From Planctomycetota bacterium (GTDB lineage Bacteria; Planctomycetota; Phycisphaerae; Phycisphaerales; SM1A02), in the NCBI GenBank assembly GCA_003671025.1, contig QWPW01000004.1, positions 1 through 64,000 on the forward strand: DNA of 64,000 bases, read 5' to 3'. A model generated the notes under the pieces. It searched no databases and was not told the DNA's origin. It saw nothing but the letters and a program-made list of their open reading frames with translations. The translations under genes and the position numbers were made by a program. Shown here in pieces: positions 52,581 through 60,872 of this stretch (position 1 is its first letter; every line of letters begins with the position of its first letter).

Positions 52581-52604
52581 TAATCGACTAATCGACTAAT
52601 CGAT
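52581..52604. repeat. 8-bp tandem repeat (TAATCGAC)3
   Basis: Three copies of TAATCGAC/T lie between the DUF1549/1553 gene and the DUF1501 gene, right at the end of the former. They may reflect slippage; no function is evident. Confidence 0.85.
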
Positions 52605-55469
52605 ATACAGAAACTCATTGAGGTTGAAGCACACGAGACACAGGCTGTCGAGGGCTTGTTCGGGCGAGAGTTTCTCGGTGTTCTGCAATTCCTGGACAAA
52701 CGCGATCGCCTCGTCCACTTCATCACCACTGGGAGTGCGCCCGCTGGTGAGTTGACGTGCGCGCACGATTTGTTGGCGCAATTGCCCAGGGAATTCACGC
52801 TCAACGCGTCGCGCGAGCAGTGCGGCTTCGCGATTGGTGAGATCACCATTGATCATCGACAACGCCTGCGTGGGAACGACGGTAGCGAAGCGCACCGGGC
52901 ACGGACTGTCGAGATCGGCGAGATCAAATGCGGACAACAGTGGCATCTGCAACGAACGCTTGAGCATCACATAGAGCGAGCGTCGCGTCCATGACGACTC
53001 TTCGGTGAGCGGCCACACTTCATTGGGACGCGAACTGGTCTCAAGTACTTCGCGCGGCAAAGGAGGACGAACGGCGGGTCCACCCATCGCATTATTGAGC
53101 GTTCCGTTGGCGGCCAACATCGAGTCGCGCAATTCTTCGGCGGTGAGACGACGCATGCGAAAGCGCGTGAGCAACTCGTTCGGTGCATCGAGACTCAACG
53201 CTTGTTCGGTGGCCACGCTGGACATGCGATAAGACGCGCTGGTCATCATCACCCGATGCATTGCTTTGAGGCTGCCACCATTCTCGATCAATGTTGCTGC
53301 GAGCCAATCGACAAGCTCTGGATGCGTGGGCTCTTCACCGAGACGACCGAAGTCGTTGGGAGTGGGCACCACCGCTTCGTTGAAATGATGCTGCCACAGC
53401 CGATTGGAGATGGTTCGCCAGGTCAATCCGTTGCGCGCGTCGGCGATCCAATTGGCCAGCGCCAAGCGGCGACCACTCGATTCGCCATGCGCGGGCGCGA
53501 CTGCGAGATCGGGCGCGAAGCGCGCGGCGATGAGCGGCACATCGGGCTGCACTTCTTCGCCGAGCGCGTGCGGGCTGCCGCGCTGCATGATGTGCGTTGC
53601 CGAGGGCGCAGACTTTTCGCGCACCGCCAACACCGTCTCACCCTCTAACTCTGGAAGACGCAGCGCATCGAGACTCGCATGCGTTTGCGTAAGCGTCTGC
53701 GCTGAGCTCTCGCCGAGCACGCGCGTGACTTCGCTTCGCGCAAATTCGACGCTGTGAATCCCTAACGCCATCGAGCGCACTTCGGTCGCGGGCAACGCGC
53801 GTGTGTACAGACGAACCTCATCGATGTCACCGCTAAACGGGCCGTCAGCATGCAACATCGCGCCGATGGCCAAACTCTTCGGTGCGTCGAGTCGCTCAGT
53901 CGAACCGCGCGCGTGATCAACCATCATGCCGTCGACGAAGAGTTCGAGTTCTCCGCTGCTACGCACGCGTGTGAGCGCAACGTGATGCCACTGACCATCG
54001 TTGTAGCCTGGACCGGACGTGAGAAATGTCTCAGGCGCGCCGGCTCCCGCTGCGATGTAGCCGTTGGCGATGAGTGAGATTCCAAAGTCGCGCGTGATGC
54101 CACCGATCTCGCCATCGACGAGTCCGTCACCGCGAAACCAACGACGATCGCTTTCACTACCGCCGCCGACATCGGTGGTGCGCATGAAAAATGAAATCGT
54201 GAAGTCATCGCCAATCGTGCGCTTGATCTCGACGCGATCGTCGCCGCCATCAAAGTGAAACGCGCGACCGATGCGGCCTTCGACGGCGAATCCGGCATCA
54301 CGCACGGTCGCGGCGGGCGCGTCGTTCACCGCGTTGGCTGCGCTGTTCCCGCGATCATCTTCAAAGCGCAAGTGCGCGACCAACGCGTCATTGCTCGCGC
54401 GATCAGGAAATCCTGTTGCATCGCAGAGCCCTGCTTGCACCTCGATCGCGCGAATGTCTTTGATCAAGGATGCGCGCGTGGCGACATACGCCGCGAGCTC
54501 GACTTCGGGATCGACATGTCCAAAGTCACTGCGCACCATGCGCAACACATTGTCTGCTTCGAGAGAATTGAAGGCCGACTCTTTGTACGGCGCGACTCCC
54601 GCAAACCACGCGGCGAATTGGTAGTACTCCTTCTGACGAATGGGATCACCCTTGTGATCATGACAACGCGCGCATCCAAGGCTGATGCCGAGAAACGTGC
54701 GCGCAGTGGTATCGACGATGCCATCCATGTCGTCCGCAAGCGCTTGCGCGAGATCGGGAACTTCGTCATCCCACAGTCCTAGCCGATAGAAGCCGGTGGC
54801 CACGATGGAGTCGAAATCGCGACCGCGGATCTCATCACCGGCGAGCTGTTCGCGAATGAACTCCGCGTATGGCAAGTCCTCGTTGAACGAACGCACCACG
54901 AAATCGCGGTACTTCCACGCAGAGGTCTTCTCGCTGTCACGTTCGAATCCGTTGGTGTCGGCGTAGCGCACGAGATCAAGCCAGTGCCGCGCCCACTTCT
55001 CTCCGTAGTGCTCACTCGCGAGCAATCGATCGATGAGCGTTTCGTATGCGAGAGAAGATTCATCCACGACAAACGCGGCAACTTCTTCTGGCGTTGGAGG
55101 GAGTCCGGTGAGATCAAGCGACGCACGACGAATGAGTACCTCACGCGATGCTTCCACCGCGGGCTGCAGATTCTTCGCTTCGATGCGAGCAAGAATGAAT
55201 CGATCGATGTCGTTGCGGCACCACGACTCATCGCGCACCGTCGGCGCTGTCGGCTTGGTCAACGCGCGATAGGCCCACCACGAATCGCGCGCGTTGTTGG
55301 CGCGCGCGACGATGGTTGCTTCGGAGGTTTTTTTGGTTGCGCTCAGTGCAACGTCATCGGCGTACACGATGGATGTGATCGGTGCGACGAATTCACTGAG
55401 CATCAATGCGCACGCACTGACACCAGAGCATCGAAGCGCGCGGACAAAGGTGATCTGACGATGGCCCAT
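52596..55469 (-). CDS. DUF1549/LamG/DUF1553 planctomycete surface protein
   Basis: A 957-residue exported protein. The signal region (about 1-38) is followed by DUF1549: WWAYRALTKPTAP, DRFILARIEAKNLQP, LIRRASLDLTGLPPTPEEV and HWLDLVRYADTNGFE. Near residue 270 is CARCHDHK, a CxxCH heme c motif typical of this domain. A LamG/concanavalin-like domain (about 400-570: RIGRAFHFDGGDDRVEI; WHHVALTRVRSSGELELFVDG) is inserted before DUF1553 (about 690-950: LANWIADARNGLTWRTISNRLWQHHF; RFATVVPTQALSMINGDLTNREAALLARRV, each quoted in part). There is no separate N-terminal PSCyt1 cytochrome. It forms an operon with the DUF1501 gene. Confidence 0.94.
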   Translation of the reverse strand: MGHRQITFVRALRCSGVSACALMLSEFVAPITSIVYADDVALSATKKTSEATIVARANNARDSWWAYRALTKPTAPTVRDESWCRNDIDRFILARIEAKNLQPAVEASREVLIRRASLDLTGLPPTPEEVAAFVVDESSLAYETLIDRLLASEHYGEKWARHWLDLVRYADTNGFERDSEKTSAWKYRDFVVRSFNEDLPYAEFIREQLAGDEIRGRDFDSIVATGFYRLGLWDDEVPDLAQALADDMDGIVDTTARTFLGISLGCARCHDHKGDPIRQKEYYQFAAWFAGVAPYKESAFNSLEADNVLRMVRSDFGHVDPEVELAAYVATRASLIKDIRAIEVQAGLCDATGFPDRASNDALVAHLRFEDDRGNSAANAVNDAPAATVRDAGFAVEGRIGRAFHFDGGDDRVEIKRTIGDDFTISFFMRTTDVGGGSESDRRWFRGDGLVDGEIGGITRDFGISLIANGYIAAGAGAPETFLTSGPGYNDGQWHHVALTRVRSSGELELFVDGMMVDHARGSTERLDAPKSLAIGAMLHADGPFSGDIDEVRLYTRALPATEVRSMALGIHSVEFARSEVTRVLGESSAQTLTQTHASLDALRLPELEGETVLAVREKSAPSATHIMQRGSPHALGEEVQPDVPLIAARFAPDLAVAPAHGESSGRRLALANWIADARNGLTWRTISNRLWQHHFNEAVVPTPNDFGRLGEEPTHPELVDWLAATLIENGGSLKAMHRVMMTSASYRMSSVATEQALSLDAPNELLTRFRMRRLTAEELRDSMLAANGTLNNAMGGPAVRPPLPREVLETSSRPNEVWPLTEESSWTRRSLYVMLKRSLQMPLLSAFDLADLDSPCPVRFATVVPTQALSMINGDLTNREAALLARRVEREFPGQLRQQIVRARQLTSGRTPSGDEVDEAIAFVQELQNTEKLSPEQALDSLCLVCFNLNEFLYID

Positions 55470-55790: not shown

Positions 55791-56660
55791 ATGATTGTGG
55801 GATCAATGTTTCGCGTCGCACTGACGCGTGTGTTGTACTTCGCCGTGAGCGCATCCATGTTGTTGGTGGTGAACTCTGTGAACGCGCAGATTTATGAGTG
55901 GAAGGTCGCCGACGGCGGTAACGGACACGCCTACACCATTCTGAGTAATCCGCCGGACACGCAACCGATGAACTGGTGGCAAGCGCGATCGATTGCAGAA
56001 GAAGCAGGCGGTCATCTCGCCACGTTCAGCAATCGCGCCGAAGCCGAGTGGGTCTTCGAGAATGTGGTCAATCATGCGTGGGTGTTCCCGACACCAGCTG
56101 GTCCGTGGATCGGCGCGCTTCATGATGGTGTGACAACGATCAGACCACAACCAGGTCAAGGCTGGCGTTGGATTGACGGGACACTATGGAACTGGGCGCC
56201 TTGGGACGACGGTCTGTGTGCGGCGCCGGTCAGTCAATGCAACAAAGGGCCTGAAGACGCGCTGCTTTTCAGCAATCCACAGTGCCTCGCCTCGCCTTCG
56301 CAAAGTTGGACTTGTGCCGAGCCGTACGGCGCATGCACTCCTTGCAATGACCAAGTGCTCACCTACTACGCGCTTGTCGAATACGACATGGACTGCAATC
56401 AAAATGGTGTCAACGATCGCATCGAGCTTCAATTCTCTCTCGCACCCGATCGCAACGACAATCTCGTTCCCGATGAATGCGAGTGTCTTGCCGACATCAA
56501 TCTCGACGGCTCGATTGATGAACACGACCTCTCAATCTTGATCGGAAACTGGGGCGAGTTCGGCATCGGCGACCTCGACGAGGATGGCATCGTCGGACAG
56601 AGTGACTTGATGTTGCTCTACGAGTTCTGGGGGCCATGTGTGTATTGCTCGGTGTGCTGA
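55791..56660 (+). CDS. Secreted C-type-lectin-like protein with dockerin repeats
   Basis: A 289-residue exported protein. The signal peptide ends near VNSVNA (about residue 32). A C-type-lectin-like domain follows (about 33-195): NGHAYTILSN, MNWWQARSIAEEAGGHLATFSNRAEAEWV (quoted in part), PWIGALHDG, WRWIDGTLWNWAPW and YYALVEYDMDC. A short Asp/Asn-rich calcium-type segment (DCNQNGVNDRIELQFS...VPDECEC) leads to two dockerin repeats (DGSIDEHDLSILIGNWG; DGIVGQSDLMLLYEFWG). It probably binds a glycan or protein outside the cell. Its leader and ribosome binding site resemble those of the PEP-CTERM gene. Confidence 0.9.
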   Translation: MIVGSMFRVALTRVLYFAVSASMLLVVNSVNAQIYEWKVADGGNGHAYTILSNPPDTQPMNWWQARSIAEEAGGHLATFSNRAEAEWVFENVVNHAWVFPTPAGPWIGALHDGVTTIRPQPGQGWRWIDGTLWNWAPWDDGLCAAPVSQCNKGPEDALLFSNPQCLASPSQSWTCAEPYGACTPCNDQVLTYYALVEYDMDCNQNGVNDRIELQFSLAPDRNDNLVPDECECLADINLDGSIDEHDLSILIGNWGEFGIGDLDEDGIVGQSDLMLLYEFWGPCVYCSVC

Positions 56661-56705
56661 GCCGCGAGTGCACTGCCGCGCGCCCATGTGCCGATAGCGA
56701 GGGCG

Positions 56706-57065
56706 ATGGACGCCGCCGCTCTTGTACTTCCACCGCTACTGCTTCTTGCGCTTCCGCTCGCGCTTCCATCGTGGCTATTCGAAGTGCTCGGTTGGGTTCC
56801 CGCCGTCGTGTTTCCAGTGGGAAGCGGACTGCAATTGCTCGCGATCATTCATCGTCGATGCGCCGAAGGCGTGTCGATCCCAGCGTGGATGCTCTTCGCG
56901 GTGGCAAACGTGTGCATGTTTCTTTACACCGAAAAATACGAGGAAATCGAGTCGATTCTCGGCGCGCTGGGCACGGCGGTGCTCAATGTCTGCGTGGTCA
57001 TCGCGGCGATTCGATTCAAGAATCTCAAGAAGCGCGCGGCCGCGATCGCGTCCGTCGATGCGTGA
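56706..57065 (+). CDS. SemiSWEET/PQ-loop-like small membrane protein
   Basis: About 119 residues with four hydrophobic segments. After a leading helix (LVLPPLLLLALPLAL), the rest matches one triple-helix bundle of the PQ-loop/SemiSWEET type: LGWVPAVVFPVGSGLQLLAIIHRR, GVSIPAWMLFAVANVCMFLY and ILGALGTAVLNVCVVIAAIRF (quoted in part). Such half-transporters form dimers that pass sugars or other small solutes. The canonical PQ pair is not obvious, so the assignment is moderate. It starts 45 bases after the lectin gene on the same strand. Confidence 0.7.
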   Translation: MDAAALVLPPLLLLALPLALPSWLFEVLGWVPAVVFPVGSGLQLLAIIHRRCAEGVSIPAWMLFAVANVCMFLYTEKYEEIESILGALGTAVLNVCVVIAAIRFKNLKKRAAAIASVDA

Positions 57066-57085: not shown

Positions 57086-59821
57086 TTACGACACGTCTGT
57101 CGCGTTTTGTTGCGTCGCCTGATTCGCCTCGCGAATCACCCCTTCAATCACCAACGCCAACTGCTCGATATCAATCGGCTTGCGCATAAACGCGTTGACG
57201 CCTGCTTCCATCGCGCGGCGTTCGGTGGCCGGAGTACCAAATCCCGTGATGCACACGACGGGAAGTGTGCGACGCAATCGCTTTGATTCGCGCGCGAGTG
57301 CGATGCCGTCCATCACTGGCATGTTGAAATCCGTGAGCAAGAGCGACAAGTCGAGTGACGCATCGCTGAGGCATTCGATTGCGTGCGCGGCAGTGGGACA
57401 GGCGGTCACGTTGTAGCCGCAGGAAACGAGCATCTCAGTGGCGACTTGCAGTACGGATGCGTCGTCATCTACGAGCAGAATGCGTCGGGCATGTGTCGGT
57501 TCCGTTGCCGAAATCGAAGGCGCTGGAACAAGGGACGACGACATTTCCCTTGTGTCATGAACGGGGAGCAACAACTCGACGCTGGTTCCGACGCGCGCAT
57601 CAGGCAGCACCGTGACCGTCCCTCCCATGTGCGCAACCACCCGCTGCACATGTGCCATCGCGAATCCATGATGGCGTTCACTTGAGCCCGCCGCAGCAGC
57701 GTTGCCGCGAAACATGGTGAACGTCTCGTCGCGCGTGTGCGCCTCGCTGCCCTCTGAATTCGAAGTTGCATCCGTGCGCGACTCGTCGATTTCCTCGCAC
57801 ACCAGAAGGCGGATCCACTCGCCGTCCTTGCGCTCGATTCGTTCCACGTGAAAGCGAATAGCACCTGCTGACTGCTTCATTGCGTCGAACGCGCTTGTGG
57901 CCAAAGTCATCAGTACTTCACGGAATTCGTTGACATCGCCGAGCACAACGCCAGAGTCAGTATCGATCGAGTCGTGCACACTCACACTCGGTGGAGCCAT
58001 GCGCCGAAACATCGCGGAGACTTCCATGACCATGGTGCTTACTGCGACGAGTTCAAACGCGCAATCAGGCCGATGCGAAATGGTCAATACCTGCTGCGCT
58101 AGGTCGCTTGCTCGACGACCCGCCTGTGCTATCTCGCGCAACAACTCTTGCGCGCGTTTATCCATCGAGGGCATGCCTTCAAGGATTTCGGTGTACGTCA
58201 AGATTGGCCAGAGCAGCGTGTTGAATTCCTGCGCGACCCGTTGCGCAAGCAAGCCCACCGCGTCGAATTTGTGCCGGCGATGGACCGCCTCGTGCAGGCG
58301 TTCGCGCACGATCACACTGGTGAATGAATTCGCCAACGTACGTAGTGCCACGAGTTCATGAACATCGAGCTCGCGCCGCGCATCAACGCGAGATTCATGG
58401 GCGAGAACGCCCCAAAGGACGCCGTCCGCAACGATGGGTTTGAGCACCGTTGGATGCGACGCATCATCAAACGCGACAGTGACCGATTGCCCCGCGGTGA
58501 GACGGATGCGCTCTTGCTGCGTCAATCGCGAAAGGCGCCTGCCGTGCATCCACGGCAAACCAAAGGTCGGATGCCACACGCACTCGACCGATCGTCCCTT
58601 CGGGTGGGCATCGTGTGCGTCGTTCAATGCGAAGTTGCTCACCGTTGACCCGGTTTGCGCGTCCTGCTCCTCCACTTCATGCGACAGCTCAACGAGCGCG
58701 AGTGTTCCGGCATCCATCGCGCTGCCCACGATGGCGAGCGCCGCATTGGCGCAGGGCAACCATTGAACGGCACCGAGTAATCGTTCGGTGGCGATGCGTG
58801 ACGCATCCATTAACGCGCCGCCTCGGCTTTGCCCATGCTGCACCGCGACTCGCGCGTAGGTCAAGCCCGCGAAGTCTGCCAACATCGAGAGTGCGGGACG
58901 ATGTTGCGACGGAACGGTGTTGCCGTTGGTGCTGGCGAATCCGATGCAACCGATGACCACACCATCGACATGCACAGGGATGTACAGACGCGAATGCAAG
59001 CGCACGCATTGTTCGCGGGACAAGTTGGCGAAGCTCTGTGTCGGTTTCGTTGCCTCGGCAAGTTCGATGACGCGGCCGGTACGCAAGACTTCGTGTGGCG
59101 ACGCATCGATGTTCATCGCCGACGCGTCGACATCCATCGCGAACGGCTGCACTGCTGTCGCGCACACACGCATGAGCTGCGCAGATTCTGGATCAAGAAA
59201 GGAGATCGATGAATGCTCGACGGCGAACAGTTCGGCGGCGAGGCGCTGAATAGTTGCGGCGAGTTCAACCAACGTGCGCACATCCGCGAAGGCTCGAGCC
59301 AAGCGACGATCGACTTCATTGCGCAATTGAAGGCGGCGATTCAATTGCACAAGCGTGTGCTGCGGAAGTCGCGCCGCCACTGCGTCGGTCACGCGAGCGA
59401 CGACTGATCGCAGCACGCCAACGGTTGCTTGGTTGATGGAGTGATGCTCGCGCGCAAGCACGACGAATCCATACATGCCCAGCGAAAGCGTGAGGACACG
59501 CAAGTGGGCCGCGGTTGAGTGATGCGGCTCGTGTGTGAGCGAATAGGTGGGCGAATGGGCGAGCAAAGCCTCGCTATTTCCCGCGATCCCCACGAGTTCT
59601 TCGCCCGACACGAGTTCGTCGCCCGAGATGGTTCGTGGATGGGCGGCGATGAGATCGAGGCGAAGCTCGTCACTCGCACGCGCGCGAAAGACCCAAACTT
59701 CGCAGTGCGGGGTCTCGCAGAATGTCGCCAGCTCTTGCGCGATACGAACCAAAAACGCTTCCAGCGTCGATGGTTCGTCGATGACGTCGGCGAGGATGGC
59801 ATCGAGGTTTCGTTGCATCAA
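57086..59821 (-). CDS. Multi-GAF hybrid histidine kinase with a degenerate kinase core
   Basis: A 911-residue cytoplasmic signalling protein. Three GAF-like sensor domains occupy about 15-165, 190-340 and 350-515. The dimerisation helix follows, but where active relatives have AHDFNN it reads VAQEFNTLLWPIL, so the phospho-accepting His is Gln531. The ATPase domain is also degraded: the N box reads TLATSAFDAM instead of NLxxNAxDAM, the DTG metal box is absent (CEEIDES), and GTGLGL is replaced by SERHHGFAMAHV. In contrast the C-terminal receiver (about 785-905) keeps DDD, the phospho-Asp in LLTDFNMPVMDG, the Thr in CITG and Lys in RKPID. It cannot work as a normal kinase; the receiver may be phosphorylated by another kinase. 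It diverges from the ThuA gene. Confidence 0.9.
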   Translation of the reverse strand: MMQRNLDAILADVIDEPSTLEAFLVRIAQELATFCETPHCEVWVFRARASDELRLDLIAAHPRTISGDELVSGEELVGIAGNSEALLAHSPTYSLTHEPHHSTAAHLRVLTLSLGMYGFVVLAREHHSINQATVGVLRSVVARVTDAVAARLPQHTLVQLNRRLQLRNEVDRRLARAFADVRTLVELAATIQRLAAELFAVEHSSISFLDPESAQLMRVCATAVQPFAMDVDASAMNIDASPHEVLRTGRVIELAEATKPTQSFANLSREQCVRLHSRLYIPVHVDGVVIGCIGFASTNGNTVPSQHRPALSMLADFAGLTYARVAVQHGQSRGGALMDASRIATERLLGAVQWLPCANAALAIVGSAMDAGTLALVELSHEVEEQDAQTGSTVSNFALNDAHDAHPKGRSVECVWHPTFGLPWMHGRRLSRLTQQERIRLTAGQSVTVAFDDASHPTVLKPIVADGVLWGVLAHESRVDARRELDVHELVALRTLANSFTSVIVRERLHEAVHRRHKFDAVGLLAQRVAQEFNTLLWPILTYTEILEGMPSMDKRAQELLREIAQAGRRASDLAQQVLTISHRPDCAFELVAVSTMVMEVSAMFRRMAPPSVSVHDSIDTDSGVVLGDVNEFREVLMTLATSAFDAMKQSAGAIRFHVERIERKDGEWIRLLVCEEIDESRTDATSNSEGSEAHTRDETFTMFRGNAAAAGSSERHHGFAMAHVQRVVAHMGGTVTVLPDARVGTSVELLLPVHDTREMSSSLVPAPSISATEPTHARRILLVDDDASVLQVATEMLVSCGYNVTACPTAAHAIECLSDASLDLSLLLTDFNMPVMDGIALARESKRLRRTLPVVCITGFGTPATERRAMEAGVNAFMRKPIDIEQLALVIEGVIREANQATQQNATDVS

Positions 59822-59981: not shown

Positions 59982-60872
59982 ATGAGCTTGATTCCCCTCG
60001 CGGTTTTCTCTTCTCACTTGCACGGTTCACTGCGCTGCTTCGGCGCGCTCCTCGCGATCGCCGCGACACACAACGCGCTCTCGACGCCTCCTGTTGCGCC
60101 GATCAAACCGACCACCACCGCAAGCGAAAACACCCCTGCACGTGGGCGAATCTTGCTGTTTTCTAAGACTGCGAGCTTTCGCCACGACTCGATTCCTAAC
60201 GCGATTGCATGCGTGAAAGAGTTGCTTGCGGATCGCTACGACATCGATGCGACCGAGGATGCGACGGTCTTCACCGCCGAGAATCTCGCGCGCTATCGCG
60301 CGGTGGTGTTCCTCTCAACCACGGGCGACATTCTCAACGACGCCCAACAAGCCGCGTTTGAAGGCTTTATTCATAACGGCGGCGGCTACGCGGGCGTGCA
60401 CGCGGCGGCCGATACCGAGCACACATGGCCGTGGTACGGAAAACTCGTCGGCGCATACTTCAAGACGCATCCCAAACCGCAAGAGTCGACGGTGCGCGTC
60501 GAAGATCGAACCCATCGATCGACGCGCATGCTGCCCGCAGAATGGAAGCGCTTCGATGAGTGGTATGTCTACGACCACAACCCGCGCTCGAGCGTCACCG
60601 TGCTCGCCAATCTCGATGACAGCACCGTGACCGGAGCCAACATGGGCGGCGATCATCCCATCGCGTGGTATCACGAATGGGAGGGCGGACGCTCGTGGTA
60701 CACCGGCGGTGGTCACACCAAAGAGAGTTACGACGAGCCGCTGTTTCGCCAGCATCTCGAAGGCGGAATTCTCTGGGCCGCGAGCGCGCCGGAGAGTGCG
60801 AAGGTGCCGCAAGATGCACCTGCGACGCGAGACAGCAAAGCGAACACGCCAGCTCCGTCAACCACCAAGTGA
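59982..60872 (+). CDS. Secreted ThuA-domain protein
   Basis: A 296-residue exported protein with a signal region at about 1-36 and a Thr/Pro-rich linker. The ThuA-like (glutamine-amidotransferase-like) domain has ILLFSKTASFRHDSIPNAI, VVFLSTTGDILNDAQQAAFEGFIHNGGGYAGVHAAADT (quoted in part), WYGKLVGAYF, PIAWYHEWEGGRSWYTGGGHT and the end LEGGILWA. ThuA domains are frequent in planctomycete carbohydrate clusters and are thought to act on sugars, with no settled reaction. Two overlapping ATGs occur; 59982 gives this frame. The tail is Pro/Thr rich. Confidence 0.93.
   Translation: MSLIPLAVFSSHLHGSLRCFGALLAIAATHNALSTPPVAPIKPTTTASENTPARGRILLFSKTASFRHDSIPNAIACVKELLADRYDIDATEDATVFTAENLARYRAVVFLSTTGDILNDAQQAAFEGFIHNGGGYAGVHAAADTEHTWPWYGKLVGAYFKTHPKPQESTVRVEDRTHRSTRMLPAEWKRFDEWYVYDHNPRSSVTVLANLDDSTVTGANMGGDHPIAWYHEWEGGRSWYTGGGHTKESYDEPLFRQHLEGGILWAASAPESAKVPQDAPATRDSKANTPAPSTTK

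Follow-up and report, generated by a model that had tools for sequence, protein, structure and literature searches.

The minus-strand gene at 57,086-59,821 of the window (the whole 64,000-nucleotide stretch of Planctomycetota DNA analysed here, positions 1 to 64,000 of contig QWPW01000004.1) raises the question of what a hybrid histidine kinase is kept for when its kinase residues are missing. The frame runs uninterrupted over 911 residues and a stop. Its first codon is TTG and its second ATG, so that the true start may lie at the latter and the protein comprise 910 residues. A sequence-only reading had taken the product for a pseudo-histidine kinase with an intact receiver, selected for a non-catalytic role. 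The features on which the following argument draws are:

57086-59821, minus strand: pseudo-histidine kinase with C-terminal receiver, 911 residues (910 with a start at the ATG, codon 2)
59372-59809, minus strand: N-terminal module, residues 5-150, GAF-like by reading of the model's secondary structure alone
58862-59272, minus strand: GAF domain, residues 184-320 (Pfam, 9e-11)
58382-58768, minus strand: third alpha/beta module, residues 352-480, GAF-like by model reading alone, with partly low model confidence
58076-58279, minus strand: DHp (HisKA-like) helical hairpin, residues 515-582 (Pfam below cut-off, AlphaFold2)
58229-58231, minus strand: Gln531 at the phospho-acceptor His position (alignment)
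58217-58228, minus strand: E532 to T535, the latter at the His+4 phosphatase position (genus alignment; motif roles from excerpts of PMC3510030)
58175-58213, minus strand: lower DHp helix 1, LWPILTYTEILEG, residues 537-549, conserved, a probable partner-docking segment
57554-58039, minus strand: degenerate ATPase (CA) domain, residues 595-756 (Pfam, alignment, model)
57878-57907, minus strand: former N box TLATSAFDAM, without both Asn (alignment)
57677-57778, minus strand: former ATP-lid region, residues 682-715, of low model confidence
57146-57481, minus strand: receiver domain, residues 781-892, with D785, D786, D831, T859 and K881 intact (Pfam, alignment)

Apart from the GAF domain, Pfam recognised the receiver (residues 781-892, 5.2e-20) and, barely above its cut-off, an HATPase_c domain (residues 628-754, 4.4e-6). 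The HisKA match at residues 524-582 stayed under the cut-off (20.0 vs 26.9 bits), and no PAS domain was found by Pfam in the 911-residue protein. The N-terminal module evolves fast, with a mean identity of 24.7% within the genus. An AlphaFold2 model built on 50 sequences (mean pLDDT 69.0, pTM 0.46) shows a long DHp hairpin (pLDDT 66-88), an ATPase sandwich (81-95 outside the lid), a receiver (mostly 83-98) and two further alpha/beta modules before the DHp, while pLDDT falls below 50 in the lid stretch 682-715. Foldseek against the PDB returned CckA, RetS, GacS and DivL among the matches to the core, with TM-scores that are modest because the query was the whole chain. A second PDB comparison was uninformative on the kinase core since all 50 matches shown span the receiver part of the model only. 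The fold elements thus do remain, as had been claimed, and Pfam HATPase_c, model and PDB matches together identify a histidine-kinase fold in the sense in which excerpts of PMC12632262 use it for pseudo-histidine kinases.

Alignment with canonical relatives bore out the catalytic losses read from the letters. In all 12 relatives from sister genera the residue opposite Gln531 is the His, Thr639 and Ser643 replace the N-box Asn pair, and EEIDESR and HHGFAM occupy the places of DDGxG and GTGLGL, with the central Gly719 as the only G2 glycine that survives. The H-box region reads QEFNT, so an HExxT box is not kept. Acceptor His and N and G boxes of an active hybrid histidine kinase are therefore absent, whereas the receiver set is present: D785, D786, D831, T859 and K881 correspond to the D, D, D, T/S, K residues described in excerpts of PMC12632262. 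The substitution of the His is more than chance, since 13 of 14 HisKA matches in the same genome retain it and the protein studied here is the sole exception. Nor has a replacement His appeared elsewhere in the dimerisation helix, as might have overturned the sequence-only reading: the stretch 490-600 holds four His, of which not one is conserved among genus members. The protein is, on good support, a pseudo-histidine kinase with an active-looking receiver, and to judge from these residues its autokinase activity is almost certainly absent.

All 16 genomes of the genus carry the gene at a single conserved locus, flanked by two genes on the opposite strand:

59982-60872, plus strand: divergent ThuA-domain gene, syntenic in the genus
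56688-57065, plus strand: convergent gene of 125 residues without Pfam match, syntenic in the genus

The ThuA-domain gene lies upstream in all 14 genomes whose contig reaches that far (for G012 on a second contig), the 125-residue gene downstream in 14 of 15 (it was not found in G010), and a DUF1549/DUF1553 gene beyond it in 15 of 15. This shared neighbourhood marks the genus members as one-to-one orthologues. Two observations on the neighbourhood itself may be recorded here. A dockerin-bearing gene sits at 55,791-56,660 of the window, between the 125-residue and the DUF1549/DUF1553 genes, and no match to it was found between these two at any of the 13 other genus loci that show both. The DUF1549/DUF1553 protein (52,596-55,469) carries a Laminin_G_3 match at its residues 407-564, between its two named domains.

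Across these orthologues, position 531 is occupied by H in six, Q in six and K, S, N and R in one each. The His is absent in 10 of 16 members and the catalytic N-box Asn in 13; the latter is kept in G005, G010 and G011 and DxGxG in these three as well as in G001 and G007. The losses are mosaic. The ATP site is retained and the His gone in G005, the reverse applies to G009, G013, G014 and G015, and the lid is deleted in G008, G009 and G014, where N box and ATPase end lie 69-70 residues apart instead of the 85-88 seen in sister genera (104, longer than usual, in the present protein). In alignment A1, which holds 11 of the 16 genus members and one sister-genus protein, Pfam recognised HATPase_c in 8 of 12 proteins and receiver, GAF and HisKA in all 12. 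The receiver catalytic set is complete in all 15 readable members, one having Ser for Thr; G015, cut by the contig end, was left out of this count. Conservation of Gln531 itself, a proposed check, was not found: since the site varies freely among six letters, the glutamine is ruled out as a residue selected as such. Orthologues with normal boxes, which were expected to betray recent decay or a sequencing error, do exist in part, as six of 16 members keep the His and one keeps His, Asn and DxGxG together. The conclusion attached to them did not hold, for the aligned residues point to repeated erosion at one locus throughout the genus and not to one recent decay or a sequencing error. The single member with all three motifs (G010:C49, L031), which is also the one without a detected 125-residue neighbour, is a contig-end fragment from a genome 78% complete; judged by its motifs, it may still be an active kinase.

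Outside the genus, the canonical state prevails. The 12 sister-genus relatives, which represent four further genera of this family, all have the His, the N-box Asn and DxGxG, and 11 of them the strict GxGLG pattern; they come from a search of 181 family genomes with the best five candidates at most per genome, so relatives may be missed, as they may in the order-level search with at most the best three. Of 80 nearest loci from named genomes, 79 could be aligned, and every one of these has His and Asn (the remaining locus was dropped as not aligned over at least 330 residues; two of the 79, L065 = G021:C43 and L067 = G150:C84, are sister-genus contigs within the 12). A protein tree built without the H-box and ATPase columns requires at least five changes between His and non-His and at least seven letter changes at this site. 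A tree of four neighbour genes requires at least three and at least six, respectively, and four losses if regain of the His is disallowed. Support is uneven, with 15 of 25 inner branches well supported in the protein tree and 5 of 15 in the neighbour-gene tree.

We then asked what selection has retained. For five pairs picked for closeness, dN/dS was calculated after Nei-Gojobori with a script of our own. Two genus members that both lack His, Asn and G boxes (G006-G002) gave 0.129 overall, with 0.027 in the receiver, 0.05 in DHp, 0.084 in GAF and 0.328 in CA. Since dS is near saturation in this pair (1.12 overall), the ratios are rough and it is the order of the domains that counts. G009-G015, a pair with the His kept, was less constrained (0.392 overall; receiver 0.211, DHp 0.157, CA 0.575). 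Three canonical sister-genus pairs lay at 0.18-0.23 overall, 0.13-0.41 in the receiver and 0.11-0.31 in the ATPase domain, so the 0.33 in CA is by itself not distinctive. These ratios indicate that the gene remained under purifying selection after the kinase residues had gone.

Two kinases encoded in the same genomes served as matched controls, a canonical hybrid kinase (c1) and a large hybrid kinase (c2), which were grouped as putative orthologues by match and motifs; a third set, c3, was dropped as the frame taken matched the receiver only in five of six cases. His, N box, G1 and G2 are kept in every row of c1 (15, counting G007) and of c2 (10), and the H box reads AHNFNN in six c1 rows. G007, plainly of another group, was removed from the c1 identity comparison. 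Over 14 genomes, mean identity (%) in c1 vs this protein was 74.4 vs 60.7 for DHp, 63.9 vs 35.1 for CA and 62.5 vs 56.3 for the receiver; over 10 genomes, c2 vs this protein gave 82.2 vs 62.3, 65.5 vs 35.8 and 56.8 vs 58.6. Within the DHp, where G012 was left out as nearly identical to G002, the H-box segment 528-536 fell to 60.3 in this protein against 87.0 in c1 (13 genomes) and to 58.3 against 95.7 in c2 (9 genomes). Lower helix 1 (537-549), in contrast, stayed at control level, with 77.2 vs 79.8 (c1, 13 genomes) and 82.7 vs 78.4 (c2, 9 genomes), and helix 2 (564-582) lay below it (64.9 vs 75.5 and 67.3 vs 94.0). One docking face is thus kept and the other is not. Trp538, Pro539 and Tyr543 do not vary among genus members. 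Lower helix 1 covers the receiver-specificity positions of HK853 (offsets +8, +11 and +15 from H260, after PDB entry titles); of the equivalent positions, 539 is the invariant Pro, Leu occupies 542 in 14 of 15 members with Thr here, and 546 is variable. With autophosphorylation gone, selection has spared the active site of the receiver, the lower part of DHp helix 1 and the GAF domain, but not the ATP site. Kinase residues are lost while the gene persists, and these comparisons show selective retention of the receiver and lower helix 1.

The explanation that we favour, by a little more than an even chance, is a catalytically dead yet maintained hybrid histidine kinase whose receiver is phosphorylated in trans and which modulates another two-component pathway. 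The GAF module or modules would set the conformation of a DHp dimer that makes no phospho-His, yet may dock a receiver or another kinase. The C-terminal receiver would obtain phosphoryl groups in trans from another kinase or an Hpt protein, and from such a transfer it would follow that the other pathway is modulated by a sensor-gated phosphate sink, phosphatase or scaffold, comparable to the action of RetS on GacS or to DivL as the link between DivK and CckA. That some non-catalytic role is under selection, as the sequence-only reading had argued, we consider very likely in view of the purifying selection on frame and receiver and of the precedents RetS and DivL. Phosphorylation of the receiver in trans is rather probable, and action on another kinase in the manner of RetS, argued from analogy, is possible at somewhat less than even chance. 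Hpt matches in all 16 genus genomes make a relay donor possible; no partner kinase or Hpt protein was found among the six neighbouring proteins scanned. As a common partner, c2 was considered and rejected: its docking segment looks similar by eye, but a threshold of E 1e-60 finds it in 10 of 16 genomes, the present one not among them. Several findings sit less easily with our explanation, among them the possibly active G010, the weaker constraint in the G009-G015 pair and the loss of the His+4 phosphatase residue in five members. Helix 2, also part of docking surfaces, is less conserved than in the controls, which speaks against it. The acid at His+1 (E532 here) is kept in all 16 members, which a kinase-dead reading does not predict: in HisKA proteins, according to excerpts of PMC3510030, kinase activity depends on this acid and phosphatase activity does not. 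The sole explanation that we can offer is a role in structure or docking.

A first alternative is that the kinase was lost and the DHp still works as a transmitter phosphatase on its own or another receiver, the sequence QExxT with the Thr at His+4 being kept. According to excerpts of PMC12632262, HisKA phosphatase activity can do without the His, and according to those of PMC3510030 T/N is the phosphatase residue; T535 fits this here, as does T/N at His+4 in 11 of 16 members. Phosphatase activity could therefore, by its motif, persist in this protein. The remaining five members, which otherwise look maintained, have D, Q, Q, Q or A at His+4 and by the known motif would not possess it, which means that the genus cannot have phosphatase action as its common function. 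A universal phosphatase role is ruled out on these grounds, and as the explanation of the locus we regard this alternative as unlikely.

A phospho-independent scaffold, in which DHp and GAF only bind a partner and the receiver is kept for folding or binding, would account for a lower helix 1 as conserved as in the catalytic controls, and DivL, according to excerpts of PMC4211667, functions without kinase or phosphatase activity. A mere fold, however, would not need catalytic positions, and all five of those in the receiver are kept in the 15 readable members (with one Ser for Thr), while receiver dN/dS is the lowest of all domains in the pair without motifs. We judge such a scaffold improbable.

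Ongoing decay, with a dispensable kinase turning into a pseudogene, would agree with the relaxed ATPase domain and with the low identity of the genus orthologues to this protein (33-40%, against 54-79% for four neighbour proteins and 44-53% for a fifth of 473 residues). However, the frame is open across the match in 16 of 16 genomes, contig-end fragments counted, as had been claimed for the present one; the stops met in search matches sit at match edges, outside the extracted frames, and overall dN/dS is 0.13 in a pair already without all motifs. With no stops or frameshifts inside the frames and no neutral evolution, a pseudogene is ruled out, and decay of any kind is very improbable. Cryptic catalysis by an unusual acceptor or donor, for instance trans-phosphorylation in a heterodimer with one half-site per partner, finds some echo in the members with His but no ATP site, in the reverse case of G005 and in the acid at 532 in all 16, but is hardly to be expected of a protein that has lost both half-sites and has no conserved His in 490-600.

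Returning to a dead kinase with a receiver phosphorylated in trans, we tentatively suggest, as slightly less than an even bet, that the hybrid kinase took on a new task before the species of the genus diverged: the state of the receiver together with the DHp docking face would have become its output, and autokinase activity would then have been dismantled independently in most species. If so, the routes of dismantling differ (loss of the His with the ATP site kept, loss of the ATP site with the His kept, deletion of the lid in several members), receiver and lower helix 1 stay fixed throughout, and the genus would offer a natural series in which a histidine kinase's docking, phospho-acceptance and catalysis can be told apart.

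Among known systems, hybrid kinases of the CckA / PRK13557 type are nearest by sequence: they provide the best NCBIfam models over DHp, CA and receiver (7.4e-36 and 2.3e-35) and the best PDB match by sequence, 5idj. This protein, however, scores far under the model cut-offs (123.7 of 631 and 121.9 of 1000 bits) and has lost the catalytic residues. By analogy, the closest working example for the proposed mechanism is RetS of Pseudomonas aeruginosa, which excerpts of PMC5992135 describe as having an ATPase domain without G boxes and no autophosphorylation, with a receiver phosphorylated by GacS, and as being also a phosphatase and an inhibitor of GacS. The degenerate ATPase domain without G boxes and the receiver are found here as well, and the RetS core is among the PDB matches, but RetS has an HExxT box where this protein has Gln for His, and two receivers instead of one.

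In DivL of Caulobacter, the phospho-His is Tyr across orthologues and a receiver-docking surface is conserved (PMC4211667, in excerpts). Replacement of the phospho-His and the DivL structure among the PDB matches of the model link the two proteins. DivL, in contrast, has N, G1, F and G2 boxes and PAS domains, whereas here the ATP motifs are gone, GAF stands in front and the receiver is fused, and the substitution of the His varies among orthologues instead of being Tyr. The combination of a GAF domain, a degenerate kinase domain and a receiver within a single chain recurs, compared by description only, in ETR2, a subfamily II plant ethylene receptor (PMC10968091, in excerpts), which differs by its membrane ethylene-binding domain and a reported Ser/Thr kinase activity. 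HisKA domains without His make up about 0.9% (722 of 76,471 sampled; excerpts of PMC12632262), few bacterial pseudo-histidine kinases had been studied as of 2014 (excerpts of PMC5361649), and among titles of open-licence papers we found none that dealt with this family or with Phycisphaerales pseudo-histidine kinases. Proteins of this kind are already known. The novelty lies in a single orthologous gene from which kinase residues have gone repeatedly and in mosaic fashion throughout a genus, a process that can be followed as it unfolds in 16 genomes, with canonical sister-genus relatives and the catalytic kinases of the same genomes as internal controls.
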